Part shown: positions 11,966 to 18,076 of the stretch, piece by piece
Position numbering within the stretch: position 1 is the first letter of the stretch
Layout of the letters: each line of letters begins with the position of its first letter
Program-made: the position numbers and the translations under genes
The notes under the pieces: model-generated
Databases searched by the model: none
The model's input: the letters and a program-made list of their open reading frames with translations, nothing else
What the model was told of the DNA's origin: nothing
Assembly (NCBI RefSeq): GCF_900110485.1
Contig: NZ_FODY01000015.1
Location: 1-64,000, forward strand
Reading direction: 5' to 3'
Origin: Propionispora vibrioides
GTDB taxonomy: Bacteria > Bacillota > Negativicutes > Propionisporales > Propionisporaceae
Length of the DNA: 64,000 bases

Positions 11966-13324
11966 GTGGACCTAGCCATCGTATTTATCCTCTTCTTTAC
12001 TTCCCTGCTCTTTAGCGTTTACCAGGGAATCGCTATACTTTATCCGCTTCTCCTGGGACTCATCTGCTTCCTGCTACTCTCCCGCCGCCGGGGATATCCC
12101 ATTTCCCATTTGCTGGCCATGATGCTGGACGGCTCGAAGAAGTCCTTACTTGTAATCAAAATCTTTGTACTGATTGGTGCCCTGACTGCTGTCTGGAGAG
12201 CTTGCGGAACCATTTCATTCATCGTCTATTATGGAATAGCTTTTATCAGCGCAAAGTACTTTCTATTATCTGCTTTTCTGTTGTGCTGCCTGGTTTCATT
12301 CCTGTTGGGAACCTCCTTCGGTACAGTGGGAACGATCGGTATTGTGCTTATGGTTTTAGCTAAAAGCGGCCAGGTGGATGTCAACATGACGGCAGGAGCT
12401 ATCATTGCCGGCGCTTATTTTGGTGATCGTTGTTCTCCCATGTCCTCAAGCGCCAATCTGATAGCCCTATTAACCAATACCGACCTGTACATAAACGTAA
12501 AAAACATGCTAAAAACCTCGTGGCTGCCCTTTGCGCTATCCGTCATTGGCTATCTGTATTTAGCTAGTTTTAACCCCCTCACTGTTTACGATAATACAAT
12601 GGCCCAGGAGATATTCACATCTTTTAATTTGAACATGATTGTACTGTTTCCCGCCATCATTATCCTTCTCCTGGCCCTTTGGCGGGTTGATGTGAAACGG
12701 TCCATGGCCATCAGCATTATAGCCGGTATCTTAATTGGCTACTTTGTTCAGGGTATTTCTTTTTTCCCTATGCTGAAATATATAATCTGGGGTTACAGTA
12801 TGGAGAAAAACGGCTTCTTTGCTGATATCATACAAGGCGGCGGCCTAGTTTCCATGCTGAAAGTTTCTCTCATTGTGCTGATTTCTTCCGCTTACTCAGG
12901 CATTTTTAAGGGGACTGGCCTCTTGAATGACCTGGAAGAGCTTTTTGAGAAACTTAGCAAAAAATTACAGGTATACCCGTCGCTTATTCTGTCCAGCCTG
13001 GCAGCGGCCGCTTTCAGTTGCAATCAAACCTTGGCAGTTATGCTTACCCATCAGTTTTCCAGTAAAAGCTATGAAGTCAGGCGCTTGAGCAGATATCGAC
13101 TGGCGGTTGACCTGGAGAATACAGTTATTTTAATCTCTGTTTTAATTCCGTGGAATATTGCCGGAGCCTTTCCTGCGGCAGCATTATCGGCGGATGCCGG
13201 CTTCATACTCTATGCGTTCTACCTGTATCTCGTTCCCCTGACTAATTTATTTGTATCCAAGCCTTCGGCCGCTAAAGCAACTGACAGTCTCACCCGAAAT
13301 GCCGGAAATAGCGAAGAGACCTAA
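11966..13324 (+). CDS. NhaC-family Na+/H+ antiporter
   Basis: The 452-residue polytopic membrane protein has the NhaC-type core: LLGTSFGTVGTIGIVL, then GAIIAGAYFGDRCSPMSSSANL, and near the C-terminus AAAFSCNQTLAVMLTHQFS and WNIAGAFPAAAL. Such proteins exchange Na+ (or, in relatives, amino acids such as malate/lactate or tyrosine/tyramine pairs) for H+. The exact substrate is uncertain. The start is a GTG at 11966 with only a weak purine-rich ribosome site. The gene is monocistronic and convergent with the hypothetical gene at 13369. Confidence 0.8.
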   Translation: MDLAIVFILFFTSLLFSVYQGIAILYPLLLGLICFLLLSRRRGYPISHLLAMMLDGSKKSLLVIKIFVLIGALTAVWRACGTISFIVYYGIAFISAKYFLLSAFLLCCLVSFLLGTSFGTVGTIGIVLMVLAKSGQVDVNMTAGAIIAGAYFGDRCSPMSSSANLIALLTNTDLYINVKNMLKTSWLPFALSVIGYLYLASFNPLTVYDNTMAQEIFTSFNLNMIVLFPAIIILLLALWRVDVKRSMAISIIAGILIGYFVQGISFFPMLKYIIWGYSMEKNGFFADIIQGGGLVSMLKVSLIVLISSAYSGIFKGTGLLNDLEELFEKLSKKLQVYPSLILSSLAAAAFSCNQTLAVMLTHQFSSKSYEVRRLSRYRLAVDLENTVILISVLIPWNIAGAFPAAALSADAGFILYAFYLYLVPLTNLFVSKPSAAKATDSLTRNAGNSEET

Positions 13325-13368
13325 ACCATACTGCAATTGGTTCAGGTCTCCCTTTGCGTTAACCCGGA

Positions 13369-13857
13369 TTAGCGATGATCGGACGAGTGAGGCTGTCCGT
13401 TCTCAACCGTTTCAACCTTGTCTGAAGAATTGCCAACAGAGTCCGCAAATTTCTTGATCGTTCGCCGCATCTGTTCCTGGTAATACCCTGTCAAGGCCAG
13501 CATCTCGGTATTCATAAGGAAATCCACTTGTTTCTCCTTTTGTCCGTTTGTCGCCTTTCCCACACCACCGGTAGAACCATCACTTGCCGTTGTTCCAACC
13601 TGGCCGGTCTCCTGATTGGATTCCTTGGTGCCATCCGCTGCTTGCTTGTCTTTCTTATCTGTTTTTTCTTCCGAACTCTCACCAATTAAAATTTTCATAT
13701 TTTTCCCGATTACTAAATAAGTGTATACCCGGCCGCCCTCTTTAACGGTAAGATACTTCCAGCCGCCGGAAGAACTGCTGTCTGTCGCCGACGACTGGCT
13801 TTGGTTCCCATAATTAGCCTGATTTTGGGTTAATGCCGAAATACCCTGTATGTCCAT
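13369..13857 (-). CDS. Hypothetical hydrophilic protein
   Basis: I do not recognise this 162-residue protein. It begins MDIQGISALTQNQANYGNQS and has a small ordered-looking segment (WKYLTVKEGGRVYTYLVIGKN, about residues 33-53). A long low-complexity stretch rich in Lys, Thr, Gly, Ser and Asp follows, and then a C-terminal helix (NTEMLALTGYYQEQMRRTIK). No signal peptide or membrane span is visible. GGGAG lies somewhat far upstream of ATG 13857. It may be a structural or secreted-apparatus protein, but nothing proves it. Confidence 0.6.
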   Translation of the reverse strand: MDIQGISALTQNQANYGNQSQSSATDSSSSGGWKYLTVKEGGRVYTYLVIGKNMKILIGESSEEKTDKKDKQAADGTKESNQETGQVGTTASDGSTGGVGKATNGQKEKQVDFLMNTEMLALTGYYQEQMRRTIKKFADSVGNSSDKVETVENGQPHSSDHR

Positions 13858-14001
13858 ATCGCTCTCACACTTCTCCCTGATTTTTACATTCTAATTTATT
13901 TATCGTAGTTTCTAAAGAATTCTTAAATATTCTTTCATCTGTACCAATTTTCAGGTAACCCGGATTAGATTAAAATTAATTTTTATCTCTTTTATATTTT
14001 T

Positions 14002-14076
14002 AGAATAATATTCTTTATTTATAGTAATATAAAGAATATTATTCTCATTTTATATCAATACATAGAATTTCATTCT
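14002..14076. promoter_or_regulatory. Array of three phased operator sites upstream of the Lrp-family gene
   Basis: Three copies of AGAAT-N3-ATTCT lie at 14002-14014, 14033-14045 and 14064-14076. Their centres are exactly 31 bases apart (three helical turns). The first two also form a 16-base inverted repeat (14002-14017 with 14030-14045). Lrp/AsnC proteins bind such short phased palindromes as oligomers, so autoregulation is likely. Confidence 0.75.
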
Positions 14077-14126
14077 TTACTTTCTTTTAACATCAGAATT
14101 ATAATTAATCCAAGGCGGTGATATTC

Positions 14127-14558
14127 TTGGATACGATAGACAAAAAAATTCTTTCCTTACTACAGTCCAATGCCAGAATGTCGAATGCGGACATTGCCCG
14201 AGAAATTAAACTGGCGCCTTCGGCAACGCTGTCCCGCATACGCAAGCTGGAAGAAGAAGGTGTCATCCTCGGCTATGAGGCGCGGCTCAATCCTCATGTA
14301 CTGGGAGCCGACATGCTTGCTTTTGTTTTGGTCAAAGTAACCGGCGACAAAGATATCGAAGCTGACCTGGCAGCTATCCCCGGCGCGCAGGAAATACATA
14401 ATATTGCCGGCGACGATTGCTATTTGCTTAAAATCCGGACGAAAAATACCGAGGCCCTGAGTAAATTATTAAAAGAAAAGGTACGGGGCGAGTCCATATC
14501 CACCAAGACAATTATTGTACTTGCTACCTTAAAGGAAACCGGTCAGCTTGTCTTATAA
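14127..14558 (+). CDS. Lrp/AsnC-family transcriptional regulator
   Basis: About 143 residues: an N-terminal helix-turn-helix (DTIDKKILSLLQSNARMSNA, KLAPSATLSRIRKLEEEGVI) and a RAM/ligand-binding domain (AFVLVKVTGDKD, NIAGDDCYLLKIRTK). AAGGCGG at 14112-14118 abuts a GTG at 14118 but is properly spaced for TTG 14127, which is chosen. It lies 23 bases upstream of the DMT exporter gene on the same strand. The arrangement is typical of an Lrp protein that senses an amino acid and controls its exporter. Confidence 0.9.
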   Translation: MDTIDKKILSLLQSNARMSNADIAREIKLAPSATLSRIRKLEEEGVILGYEARLNPHVLGADMLAFVLVKVTGDKDIEADLAAIPGAQEIHNIAGDDCYLLKIRTKNTEALSKLLKEKVRGESISTKTIIVLATLKETGQLVL

Positions 14559-14581
14559 ATGATAGTTAGGAGATTACAACC

Positions 14582-15547
14582 ATGAATGTTTTTAGATCAC
14601 TTTCCTATCCCATTCTATTGGCTTTACTGGCAGTTTACTTTGCCTGGGGCGGAACCTATCTGGCCATGCGTATTGCGGTGGAAACCATGCCTCCCTTTCT
14701 GTTGGCAGGCATCCGCTTCATCACAGCCGGGCTGTTGCTATATCTATGGGAAATGCTCAAAGGCACCAAAACGCCAACAAAATACCACTGGCGCAACGCT
14801 GCGATCAGTGGCGGCATGATGCTGCTAGGCGGCAATGCCTTGGTCGCCTGGGCTGAACAAACGGTTTCCTCCGGCATTGCCGCGCTCATCGTGGCCACCG
14901 TACCTTTATGGATGACCTTATTCGCCTGGTTGCGGTACGGAGAGTCCAAGCCGACTCTGCATATTCTTGCCGGCTTGGGACTGGGTTTTCTGGGACAAAT
15001 CCTGCTGATAAGCAACTCGTGGAATAGTGCCGGCTATCACACTGCGCCGCTTACCGGCTATCTTGTTTTGACTTTGGCCGCACTGTTCTGGGCGGCAGGC
15101 TCCGTCTATTCCCGCAAGGCCCAGTTGCCGGCTTCTTCCTTTATGTCGATAGCACTTCAGAATATTGCCGGCGGCGGCTTATGCCTGCTGGTTGGCCTGT
15201 TGGCCGGTGAACCGGCAAAATTGCAGTTGGCCAGTCTTTCAGTTTCTTCTCTGCTGGCTTTAGCCTATTTAATTTTCATCGGTTCACTGATCGGCTTTAG
15301 CGCCTATATCTGGGTACTGAAAAAGGCCGAACCTTCCCTCGTTTCCACCTATGCCTACGTCAATCCCTTAGTGGCTGTATTTCTGGGCTATGTTTTTGCC
15401 GACGAGCCACTCACGGCACATATCGCCCTGGCCGCCGGCATAATCGTACTGGCCGTCATCTTAATTACCAAAACACCCAAACCCGCACACCGGCCCTCCC
15501 CCAGCACTGGCTGCCCGTTTTCCGGCCTGGACGGTGAGGGAATATAA
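14582..15547 (+). CDS. EamA/DMT-family exporter
   Basis: The 321-residue protein has ten predicted membrane spans made of two EamA repeats. The first starts LLALLAVYFAWGGTYLAMRI; the second contains ALFWAAGSVYSRKAQ and ends with YAYVNPLVAVFLGYVFADEP. These are standard features of drug/metabolite transporters such as YdcZ, RhaT-like or amino-acid exporters. TTAGGAG precedes ATG 14582. It is the second gene of an operon with the Lrp-family regulator, suggesting export of an amino acid or related metabolite. Confidence 0.85.
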   Translation: MNVFRSLSYPILLALLAVYFAWGGTYLAMRIAVETMPPFLLAGIRFITAGLLLYLWEMLKGTKTPTKYHWRNAAISGGMMLLGGNALVAWAEQTVSSGIAALIVATVPLWMTLFAWLRYGESKPTLHILAGLGLGFLGQILLISNSWNSAGYHTAPLTGYLVLTLAALFWAAGSVYSRKAQLPASSFMSIALQNIAGGGLCLLVGLLAGEPAKLQLASLSVSSLLALAYLIFIGSLIGFSAYIWVLKKAEPSLVSTYAYVNPLVAVFLGYVFADEPLTAHIALAAGIIVLAVILITKTPKPAHRPSPSTGCPFSGLDGEGI

Positions 15548-15688
15548 TCCACGCAGGAAAATATTCCTAATTGCCGAATATATGATAGATAATAAGTTCT
15601 TTAAGGTCTTGATACCAATAGCAAGGGAAGTTATGGGGAAAACCTATACTATCGAAAACTTTGACCGTGTTTTGATGGAGATGATATC

Positions 15689-16633
15689 GTGCTAACCTGG
15701 AATGAAAAAAGGCAATTGACTAAGCTTGCCGCCTGGTATTATATAGACGGATGGACCCATGAACAAATTGCCGCCAAACTGGGTGTTTCCCGTCCGGTTG
15801 TCTCGAAGCAGCTACAGAAAGCAAGAGACCTCGGAATTATTGACTTTTATATCGAAAGTGAAACGGAAACAACACTGAGTTTGGAAAATAAGCTAAAAAA
15901 GAAATTTGAGCTAACTTATATTAAGGTTATTCCCAATAATACAAACCTGAGTTCCTTAAAAGCCCATATTATGAAGGCCGCCGTACAATACCTTACTACA
16001 CGGCTACCCCACATTGCCTCGCTGGGAATCGGCTGGGGAAATACTATGTTTGATTTGGTTGCTGAGTTTCCCTACCGTCCTTTTGCCAGCTTACATATCG
16101 TCCCCTTGATTGGCGGAATTAGTGCCTCAACTAAAAAAATTCACTCGAATGACCTGGTAACACAACTAGCCAAAAAGCTAATGTGCAGTTATTCCTATCT
16201 CTATTCCCCTTTCCTGGCCACGACTTTGGAAATGAAAGAACAACTCCTGCAGATTCCCGAGATTGCGCAAACCTTGTCGGAAGCCAGACAGGTCGATCTT
16301 GCTGTAGTCGGAATCGGCGTTGCCAGTAAGTCGGCAACCCTTAGCAAGGTAGGCTACTTGTCAGAAGAGGACGTGCTTGCCTTAGAAAAATCAAATGTTG
16401 CCGGTGATATTACTTCCTGTTTTTTTGACAAAACGGGAAATGAAATCTCCTGTTCCTTTAATTTGCGAACCATTGGAATTGGCCTGAAAGAATTGCGGGC
16501 CATTCCGGAAGTGGTTGGCATTGCTTATGAAAAAGAAAAGGTGGCAAGTGCCTATATTTCATTAAAACATAAGTACCTGAATAGCTTTATCACCAACGAG
16601 GACACTGCGCTTTCCCTGTTAAATATGCCTTAA
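15689..16633 (+). CDS. SorC-family sugar-binding regulator (first of two)
   Basis: The 314-residue protein has an N-terminal helix-turn-helix (WTHEQIAAKLGVSRPVVSKQ) followed by a SorC/CggR effector domain (IASLGIGWGNTMFDLVAEFP, IVPLIGGISAS, DLAVVGIGVASKSATLSKVG). Such proteins bind a phosphorylated sugar or polyol and control the matching operon. The start is GTG 15689 with GGAG upstream. It faces the PTS/dehydrogenase locus that ends at 16710, and a paralogue lies on the other side at 22400. It is a candidate regulator of that locus. Confidence 0.85.
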   Translation: MLTWNEKRQLTKLAAWYYIDGWTHEQIAAKLGVSRPVVSKQLQKARDLGIIDFYIESETETTLSLENKLKKKFELTYIKVIPNNTNLSSLKAHIMKAAVQYLTTRLPHIASLGIGWGNTMFDLVAEFPYRPFASLHIVPLIGGISASTKKIHSNDLVTQLAKKLMCSYSYLYSPFLATTLEMKEQLLQIPEIAQTLSEARQVDLAVVGIGVASKSATLSKVGYLSEEDVLALEKSNVAGDITSCFFDKTGNEISCSFNLRTIGIGLKELRAIPEVVGIAYEKEKVASAYISLKHKYLNSFITNEDTALSLLNMP

Positions 16634-16648
16634 GTAAGTTCATAAATA

Positions 16649-16691
16649 AAACGGGCTGTCAAACTTCACCGGGAAGTTCGGCAGCCCGTTT
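16649..16691. terminator. Bidirectional terminator
   Basis: AAACGGGCTG (16649-16658) pairs with CAGCCCGTTT (16682-16691), between the convergent SorC-type and SAF-oxidoreductase genes. Confidence 0.8.
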
Positions 16692-16709
16692 TGGCTTTCT
16701 TACGCAGCA

Positions 16710-18005
16710 TTACTTATTATACATAGCATCTTGTTCCTTACGCAGTTTGTAAATCAGAGTATCCTGGTCCAGTTCCACCATATCCCTGGTCAGAAGCTGG
16801 CCTTTTTTAGCAGGTTTCAACATACGGGTTTTCTTGGTCACCAGGCCATAAGGTACATAGCCTTTTGCCTTCGCTTCCACCGCCGTCGCGATGGAACCAT
16901 AGGTTGTGAAACCGCCAATGCCATCAATCGTTTGTCCTGCCTGCAAGTCGGTTTTGGCCACCGTGATGCATTCGCTGACAAGACCGTCAATCGGCACAAT
17001 GGTGGATTCTCCGTCAATCACGGTCTTGGCAACAGTCAGCGGTGTTTCCAGATTGCACAGATGGTAAGGACGGTATAAAATCCATAAAGGACCATTGCCC
17101 ATGCTATGATAACGCATCTGGTAAGCAATTTCTTCATTCTCGGTGGAAACAGCCACAAATACGCCGGGGGCAATGCCATTTACATATTCGACGACCCCAT
17201 ATTGATGTAAAATGCCGCCATCTTTTTTCAGTCTGTATAAATCCGGCAGTTCTTTAAGTCCCGCCGCAATACCATGCCCGCCGATTATATCGGGAATCAG
17301 GCCGGTTGCGTTAGACATAGCCGTCATTTCCACCATGGTCTTCGTACCGTCTTTAAATGCGCAAAGCATTTTGGGGCTCATTTTCCGGCGGGTAGCCTCT
17401 TCGAGGACGGTATCGGGGTTGCAATCATAGTCCAATTTATTGTTTTTGCCTTTCCCCATCACTTTTACATCCATACCCATGGCTTTGGCAAAACAATACA
17501 GCTCCATGACGGCCCCCGGTTCGTCACCGGCAGATCCGGTGTAGATAACCCCGTGTTGATCAGCCAGTTTTTTCAGGTATGGTCCAATCACTACGTCTGT
17601 TTCCACATTCAGCATGACCACATGTTTGCCGTTTCTGATGGCATCTGTTGCAATTTTAGCCCCTACATCCGGTACCCCGGTCGCATCAATGGCACACTCT
17701 ACCAAATTAGCCTGCGAAATAAAGTCCGCCTGCGTGGTAGCCACATATTTCCCTGCCTCCATTTGTTTATTGGCCTCGGCAAGGTTATCCACCACAGCAA
17801 TTTGGTCGTCGGTAATTCCGGCGTAATGAAAGGCGTTAACCACATTTTCCACATTGATATCGGATACAATGGCCGGCATGATTCCCTGCATCAGGACCAT
17901 TTGGGTTACCATACCGCGTCCCATTTGACCTGCTCCAACAATGCCTGTCCGAATGATCTTACCATCCTGCTGGCGTTTCATTAGTTTTTGATTCATATTT
18001 AACAT
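16710..18005 (-). CDS. Homoserine-dehydrogenase-like NAD(P) oxidoreductase with C-terminal SAF domain
   Basis: About 431 residues. An N-terminal Rossmann fold (RTGIVGAGQMGRGMVTQMVL) is followed by a homoserine-dehydrogenase-like middle (NLVECAIDATGVPDVGAKIA, YTGSAGDEPGAVMELY) and a C-terminal SAF-like region (VAKTDLQAGQTIDGIGGFTT). Proteins of this type are found in sugar and polyol gene clusters; the reaction is not firmly known to me. The frame extends to 18035, but AGGGG stands nine bases before ATG 18005. It is the most distal gene of the PTS-linked dehydrogenase group. Confidence 0.75.
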   Translation of the reverse strand: MLNMNQKLMKRQQDGKIIRTGIVGAGQMGRGMVTQMVLMQGIMPAIVSDINVENVVNAFHYAGITDDQIAVVDNLAEANKQMEAGKYVATTQADFISQANLVECAIDATGVPDVGAKIATDAIRNGKHVVMLNVETDVVIGPYLKKLADQHGVIYTGSAGDEPGAVMELYCFAKAMGMDVKVMGKGKNNKLDYDCNPDTVLEEATRRKMSPKMLCAFKDGTKTMVEMTAMSNATGLIPDIIGGHGIAAGLKELPDLYRLKKDGGILHQYGVVEYVNGIAPGVFVAVSTENEEIAYQMRYHSMGNGPLWILYRPYHLCNLETPLTVAKTVIDGESTIVPIDGLVSECITVAKTDLQAGQTIDGIGGFTTYGSIATAVEAKAKGYVPYGLVTKKTRMLKPAKKGQLLTRDMVELDQDTLIYKLRKEQDAMYNK

Positions 18006-18076
18006 ATTCTGATCCCCTTCGTTTTTTTTACACACCTATTGTTGTCTGCCTTGCACGCAAACAGCCTTGATTAGAA

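Follow-up and report, generated by a model that had tools for sequence, protein, structure and literature searches.

In the 64-kb stretch of Propionispora vibrioides DNA analyzed here (contig NZ_FODY01000015.1; hereafter, the window), a gene for an Lrp/AsnC-type regulator (14127..14558, forward strand) is followed, after 23 nt, by a gene for an EamA/DMT exporter (14582..15547, forward strand), and the two genes presumably form one operon. A TTG start codon was assigned to the regulator gene by comparison with its orthologs, because several of these show ATG or GTG at the same codon. The regulator matches the Pfam families PF13412, PF13404 and PF01037 above their cut-offs (N-terminal AsnC-type HTH and C-terminal RAM/AsnC ligand domain), and the exporter matches the EamA domain (PF00892), in agreement with an earlier note on this DNA which had taken the two genes for an Lrp-family regulator and a DMT exporter. 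The score of the regulator against the NCBIfam Lrp equivalog model is 94 bits, below the cut-off of 233, so that by this measure the protein is a member of the Lrp/AsnC family rather than an ortholog of Escherichia coli Lrp. The exporter scores 254 bits against the YedA equivalog model, just below the 270-bit cut-off, and accordingly is denoted only YedA-like. The surrounding genes include an NhaC/ArcD-like antiporter gene (11966-13324, forward strand; below the equivalog cut-offs) and a 162-aa frame without a Pfam or NCBIfam match (13369-13857, reverse strand; also present at the same-genus locus L005) on the upstream side, and a SorC-type regulator (Sugar-bind, PF04198) beside an opposite-strand DRL_cat oxidoreductase gene (15689-18035) on the downstream side.

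Upstream of the regulator gene, the palindrome AGAAT-N3-ATTCT (AGAATNNNATTCT) occurs in three exact copies starting at 14002, 14033 and 14064, with no other copy in the window; the centers (14008, 14039 and 14070) are separated by two exact 31-bp steps, precisely as the earlier note had it. Dinucleotide shuffles of the window contain on average 0.09 exact copies each, and three copies were found in none of 100. When the pair pattern was searched at 31 bp with at most 3 mismatches, there were 3 matches in the window and 0 in 100 shuffles, and the third of these pairs (14064-14107) reveals a fourth AGAAT-N3-ATTCT copy, 31 bp beyond the third, that was missing from the earlier note. The locus thus contains four candidate operator sites in register, all on the forward strand and spanning 106 bp in total: two that fit AGAATwwwATTCT perfectly (site 1, 14002..14014, AGAATAATATTCT; site 2, 14033..14045, AGAATATTATTCT), one near-perfect site with a central C (site 3, 14064..14076, AGAATTTCATTCT) and one degenerate site with 3 mismatches that retains 6 of the 8 core motif bases (site 4, 14095..14107, center 14101, AGAATTATAATTA). 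The pattern AGAATwwwATTCT is quoted as an E. coli Lrp consensus (PMC5554404), and Lrp-type sites are described as spaced by two or three helical turns (PMC2995911). The sequence of the array supports its assignment to Lrp-type operators, that is, repeated palindromes of 13-17 bp at such spacing.

A consensus scan, on which the promoter assignment is based, predicts a -35 element TTTACT (14076..14081, forward strand) and a -10 element TATAAT (14100..14105, forward strand) separated by 18 bp. This is the best promoter-like match in the region 13850-15750 (10 of 12 positions), where 9 such matches were found compared with 3.5 in shuffles. The last base of site 3 is the first base of the predicted -35 element, and the predicted -10 element lies inside site 4. 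Transcription would then start near 14112, with the sites centered near -104, -73, -42 and -11 and a leader of about 15 nt.

Within the class Negativicutes, a regulator ortholog (E up to 1e-32) was identified in 14 of 380 genomes. A search of the same 380 genomes for exact motif pairs, with the center distance left free between 16 and 46 bp, yielded 9 pairs in 7 genomes, all of them 31 bp apart, all at the lrp-exporter locus, and all in genomes that belong to the 14 with the ortholog; the motif read backward, used as a control over the same distances and genomes, gave zero exact pairs. With the distance fixed at 31 bp and up to 3 mismatches allowed, matches were found in 15 of 16 chosen genomes (27 forward matches), 25 of the 27 at the locus and one each elsewhere in genomes G037 and G003 (3 mismatches each). 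Such loose pairs do arise by chance, given that the backward control produced 8 forward matches in 4 of the 16 genomes. A genome of the same genus (G001) that lacks the ortholog at the cut-off showed no 31-bp pair. We also considered a wider regulon, and single exact motifs in genome G000 number 9 forward versus 4 backward, with 3 of the 9 belonging to the array; we claim no regulon. Pelosinus propionicus (L006/L034) carries two strong sites upstream of lrp and a decayed third position. A 3.75-kb contig from a metagenome-assembled genome (MAG) labelled Neobacillus (JAQSXG010000524.1; L036) encodes a regulator, 79% identical to the window protein, and an exporter that are both Pelosinus-like, so the label is possibly a binning error; by eye, the spacers around the middle site of this locus form 22-nt perfect reverse-complement arms, making the whole array one long dyad.

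Beyond the class, an Olivibacter protein (48% identical) led to one family of Bacteroidota, with matches in 146 of the 301 genomes sampled. We compiled 85 lrp-exporter loci, of which 10 come from Negativicutes, 5 from the family f26 and 70 from Bacteroidota; related loci in this set are not independent events. The Bacteroidota set covers 70 of the 146 matching genomes and consists of L038, the 29 next-best matches and 40 forward-strand loci picked by hand from the other matches; left out were L034, L035 and L081 (upstream copies of L006, L080 and L037, respectively) and L120 (the same locus as L038), and two loci from Rhodobacteraceae (L159 and L160) were scored as a separate group. For each upstream region (200 bp for the first 30 Bacteroidota loci, 220 bp for the other 40, and only 115 bp for L036), the best-scoring GAAT-N3-ATTC pair at a distance of 12 to 70 bp was recorded. 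The best pair lies at 31 bp, alone or tied, in 74 of the 85 loci, at 30 bp in 8 and at 32 bp in 3. The 31-bp distance is found in 9/10 Negativicutes, 5/5 f26 and, for the two Bacteroidota sets, 24/30 and 36/40 loci. In shuffles of 47 regions (45 plus the two from Rhodobacteraceae), 31 bp was among the best distances in 93 of 940 cases and alone in 8 of 940, and the mean best pair score was 11.6, compared to 15.3 observed for these regions. Among 69 other Lrp loci, paralogs included, there was no strong pair at 30 or 31 bp, and a single pair scored at least 14, at 66 bp.

Spacers were compared in those 78 of the 85 regions whose strong pair is spaced by exactly 31 bp; site identities are inflated by the motif selection, whereas spacer identities are not. 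For the spacers, the identity amounts to 0.46 among Negativicutes, 0.45 among Bacteroidota and 0.44 for comparisons across these two groups, where base composition alone would give 0.41; for f26, the value is 0.52 against 0.28 expected, which marks the five f26 loci as close relatives. Across the groups, the distance is kept while the spacers are close to random. The earlier note had named loss of the spacing in relatives, along with a failure to bind, as grounds for giving up its reading; the spacing is in fact kept, every one of the 85 loci having it at 30-32 bp. Taken together, the comparisons support the conclusion that the array is real and that its phasing is under selection. Sites 1 and 2 with their flanks could alternatively be read as a 26-nt inverted repeat that forms an RNA or DNA hairpin (arms 13993-14018 and 14029-14054, 85% complementary), but the repeat is situated 5' of the predicted promoter, a search of 13000-16000 returned no Rfam family, spacer sequences are close to random from one group to another, and palindromic sites will trivially pair among themselves. 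On the strength of the promoter position, the Rfam result and the random spacers we rejected this reading, which we consider extremely improbable.

In all 85 loci, lrp is followed directly by the exporter gene, as determined by tblastn for the 70 Bacteroidota and by a shared start of the next frame for the other 15. An exporter-linked MAG locus outside this set (L042/L043) showed no array. No exporter was found beside the Rhodobacteraceae loci (L039-L041, L045, L046, L159 and L160); an apparent TTTCG...ATTCG repeat, 31 bp apart, noticed by eye in two of them (L039 and L040) was dropped, and the best pairs of the related L159 and L160 (scores 11 and 10) are at the shuffle level of 11.6. A plasmid search with the regulator returned 120 records, all below 60% identity. 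The regulator appears to act locally, with one such array per genome. The array might, in principle, be used by another Lrp paralog or by an unrelated factor, considering that the P. vibrioides genome encodes three further Lrp homologs (E up to 0.001) and that its motif agrees with the consensus for E. coli Lrp. This seems highly unlikely, however, in view of the co-occurrence of the array with the adjacent regulator gene across two phyla, the lack of a strong 30-31-bp pair at the 69 other Lrp loci, and the lack of a pair in the same-genus genome G001, from which the ortholog is absent at the cut-off.

The five f26 loci, in which the Lrp protein is 49-57% identical to the window protein, are arranged differently. 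In the available sequence upstream of lrp, no motif copy with at most 1 mismatch was detected in any of the five; in every one of these loci, the site pair instead occupies the gap that immediately precedes the exporter gene. After the first site comes TTTACT (three loci), TTTACC (one) or TTTACA (one), and the second site contains TATAAT in all five. Because the pair is placed before the exporter gene and not before lrp, the array appears to go with the exporter, which marks the exporter as the target. The earlier note's proposal that the exporter is controlled through the array is well supported by this placement and by the link to the next gene in all 85 loci.

The direction of this control is less obvious, given that sites near -42, -73 and -104 would suit an activator too. 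The adjacent Lrp might thus activate the operon or play a dual role, with dimers at these three positions helping RNA polymerase and site 4 occupied only at a high protein level. The positions of the sites relative to the predicted promoter and the weakness of site 4 fit such a scheme, and autoregulation by Ss-LrpB is reported to go from positive to negative with concentration (PMC2995911). Nevertheless, the AGAAT half of site 4 stays in register in both the window and f26 although the -10 element is shifted by one base, and the nearest tested Lrp-EamA pair acts by repression (PMC8707732); we therefore regard activation or dual control as unlikely.

The number of sites per array was estimated by walking in steps of 30-32 bp and accepting slots with at least 6 of the 8 motif bases, a rule that a random slot passes in 5.6% of cases, true sites included. 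By this rule, four sites are present in 8 of 10 Negativicutes loci and two in the remaining 2, the fourth site being an upstream neighbor in some loci and the -10 site in others; f26 loci have two sites in 4 of 5 cases and three in 1 of 5, and among the 70 Bacteroidota loci one has a single site, 45 have two, 22 have three and 2 have four. The two-site Bacteroidota loci count against an octamer, for they offer fewer sites than an octamer could hold. Moreover, octamer wrapping is not compelled by the phasing because separate dimers that bind cooperatively would also satisfy the same-face arrangement. Such binding of separate dimers on one face, with no wrapping, is in our judgment somewhat unlikely: the same-face phasing and the many loci with only two strong sites are accounted for, but relatives form octamers and wrap DNA (PMC2995911, PMC10201364) and most Negativicutes loci contain four in-register sites, even if by a loose rule. 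Wrapping around an octamer, the earlier note's reading, is plausible by analogy with these relatives.

The predicted fold of the regulator monomer (mean pLDDT 80.8, pTM 0.58, with the last ten residues poor) matches full-length structures of the Lrp family with Z scores of 12.1-13.9, and identity over the fold alignment is 42% to FL11, 37% to E. coli Lrp (PDB 2gqq) and 36% to ST1022. The ligand loop reads GDFD in E. coli Lrp, GDYD in FL11 and GDDC in the window protein. The cysteine at the last position of this GD-x-D loop occurs in each of the first 20 exporter-linked alignment rows and was considered as a signature of the clade, yet across the 85 loci this position is C in only 58 and G in 27, so that it amounts to a trend only. 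In 81 of the 85 loci (79 by pattern and 2 read from the exceptions), the protein retains a T-x-T pair that is described as a glutamine contact in Grp (PMC8707732). These features of the pocket suit a small-molecule effector and do not name it.

Several known systems resemble parts of this arrangement. E. coli Lrp belongs to the same family and shares the site sequence with the array, but it is a global regulator, compared with one array found per genome here, and its sites are separated by spacers of 27-29 bp (PMC10201364), as opposed to the 16 bp that we calculate between 15-bp sites. The geometry is matched by BarR of Sulfolobales, with 15-bp sites and 15-17-bp spacers (PMC10201364), which corresponds to 30-32 bp center-to-center by our calculation; the Ah-BarR octamer wraps DNA (PMC10201364), and octamers of FL11 (PH1519) supercoil it (PMC2995911). 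AsnC is counted with these two among the nearest known systems. BarR differs in its DNA motif, its archaeal promoter and its target, which is an aminotransferase gene rather than an exporter. Ss-LrpB from Sulfolobus solfataricus binds its own control region at three sites as cooperative dimers and condenses about 100 bp (PMC2995911); it is archaeal and recognizes another motif. In Pseudomonas aeruginosa PA2577-PA2576, a local Lrp/AsnC protein represses the neighboring EamA-like transporter gene (PMC8707732); there, the gene order is divergent, and the available part of that paper gives no phased operator. A literature search found no title about the present lrp-exporter operon, which is not proof of its absence in print.

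On the whole, we consider it fairly probable that the array serves the adjacent Lrp/AsnC protein as its operator, and that this protein forms a phased oligomer over the promoter and keeps the exporter operon repressed as long as no effector is bound; the binding, the wrapping, the regulatory sign and the effector are features that we infer from relatives. Each site would bind one dimer, and dimers on one face of the helix would join via their RAM domains, with the DNA bending or wrapping around an oligomer of up to octamer size. The strong sites 1 and 2 would nucleate the complex and the weaker sites 3 and 4 would fill cooperatively, so that, once filled, the array would cover the promoter and keep the lrp-exporter operon repressed. 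The complex would be loosened by a small effector, possibly an amino acid removed by the exporter, and the exporter would be made when its substrate builds up. More tentatively, it is possible that this Lrp clade uses the 31-bp step as a fixed ruler, set by the geometry of the DNA-wrapped oligomer and preserved in two phyla, in which case an octamer-sized, nucleosome-like particle would incorporate the promoter in its last repeat, the value of about 10.3 bp per turn (three turns in 31 bp) would report wrapped or over-wound DNA, and the unit would travel with the exporter and not with the regulator gene.

The system seems to belong to an established class of Lrp-type switches, of which it is an unusually clear-cut representative. 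Three features may be new: how exactly the spacing is kept across phyla, the merging of the promoter into the last repeats and, in one family, the placement of the array with the exporter. As a rule, Lrp operators in nature are rather degenerate (PMC2995911), which makes their geometry hard to read, whereas the 85 related loci provide the tolerance of the spacing, 30-32 bp. With its clean, exact 31-bp steps and known tolerance, the array would be a good substrate for the structure of a wrapped Lrp-DNA complex and for spacing mutants that distinguish wrapping from simple cooperativity, and the effector may reveal the cargo of the DMT exporter.
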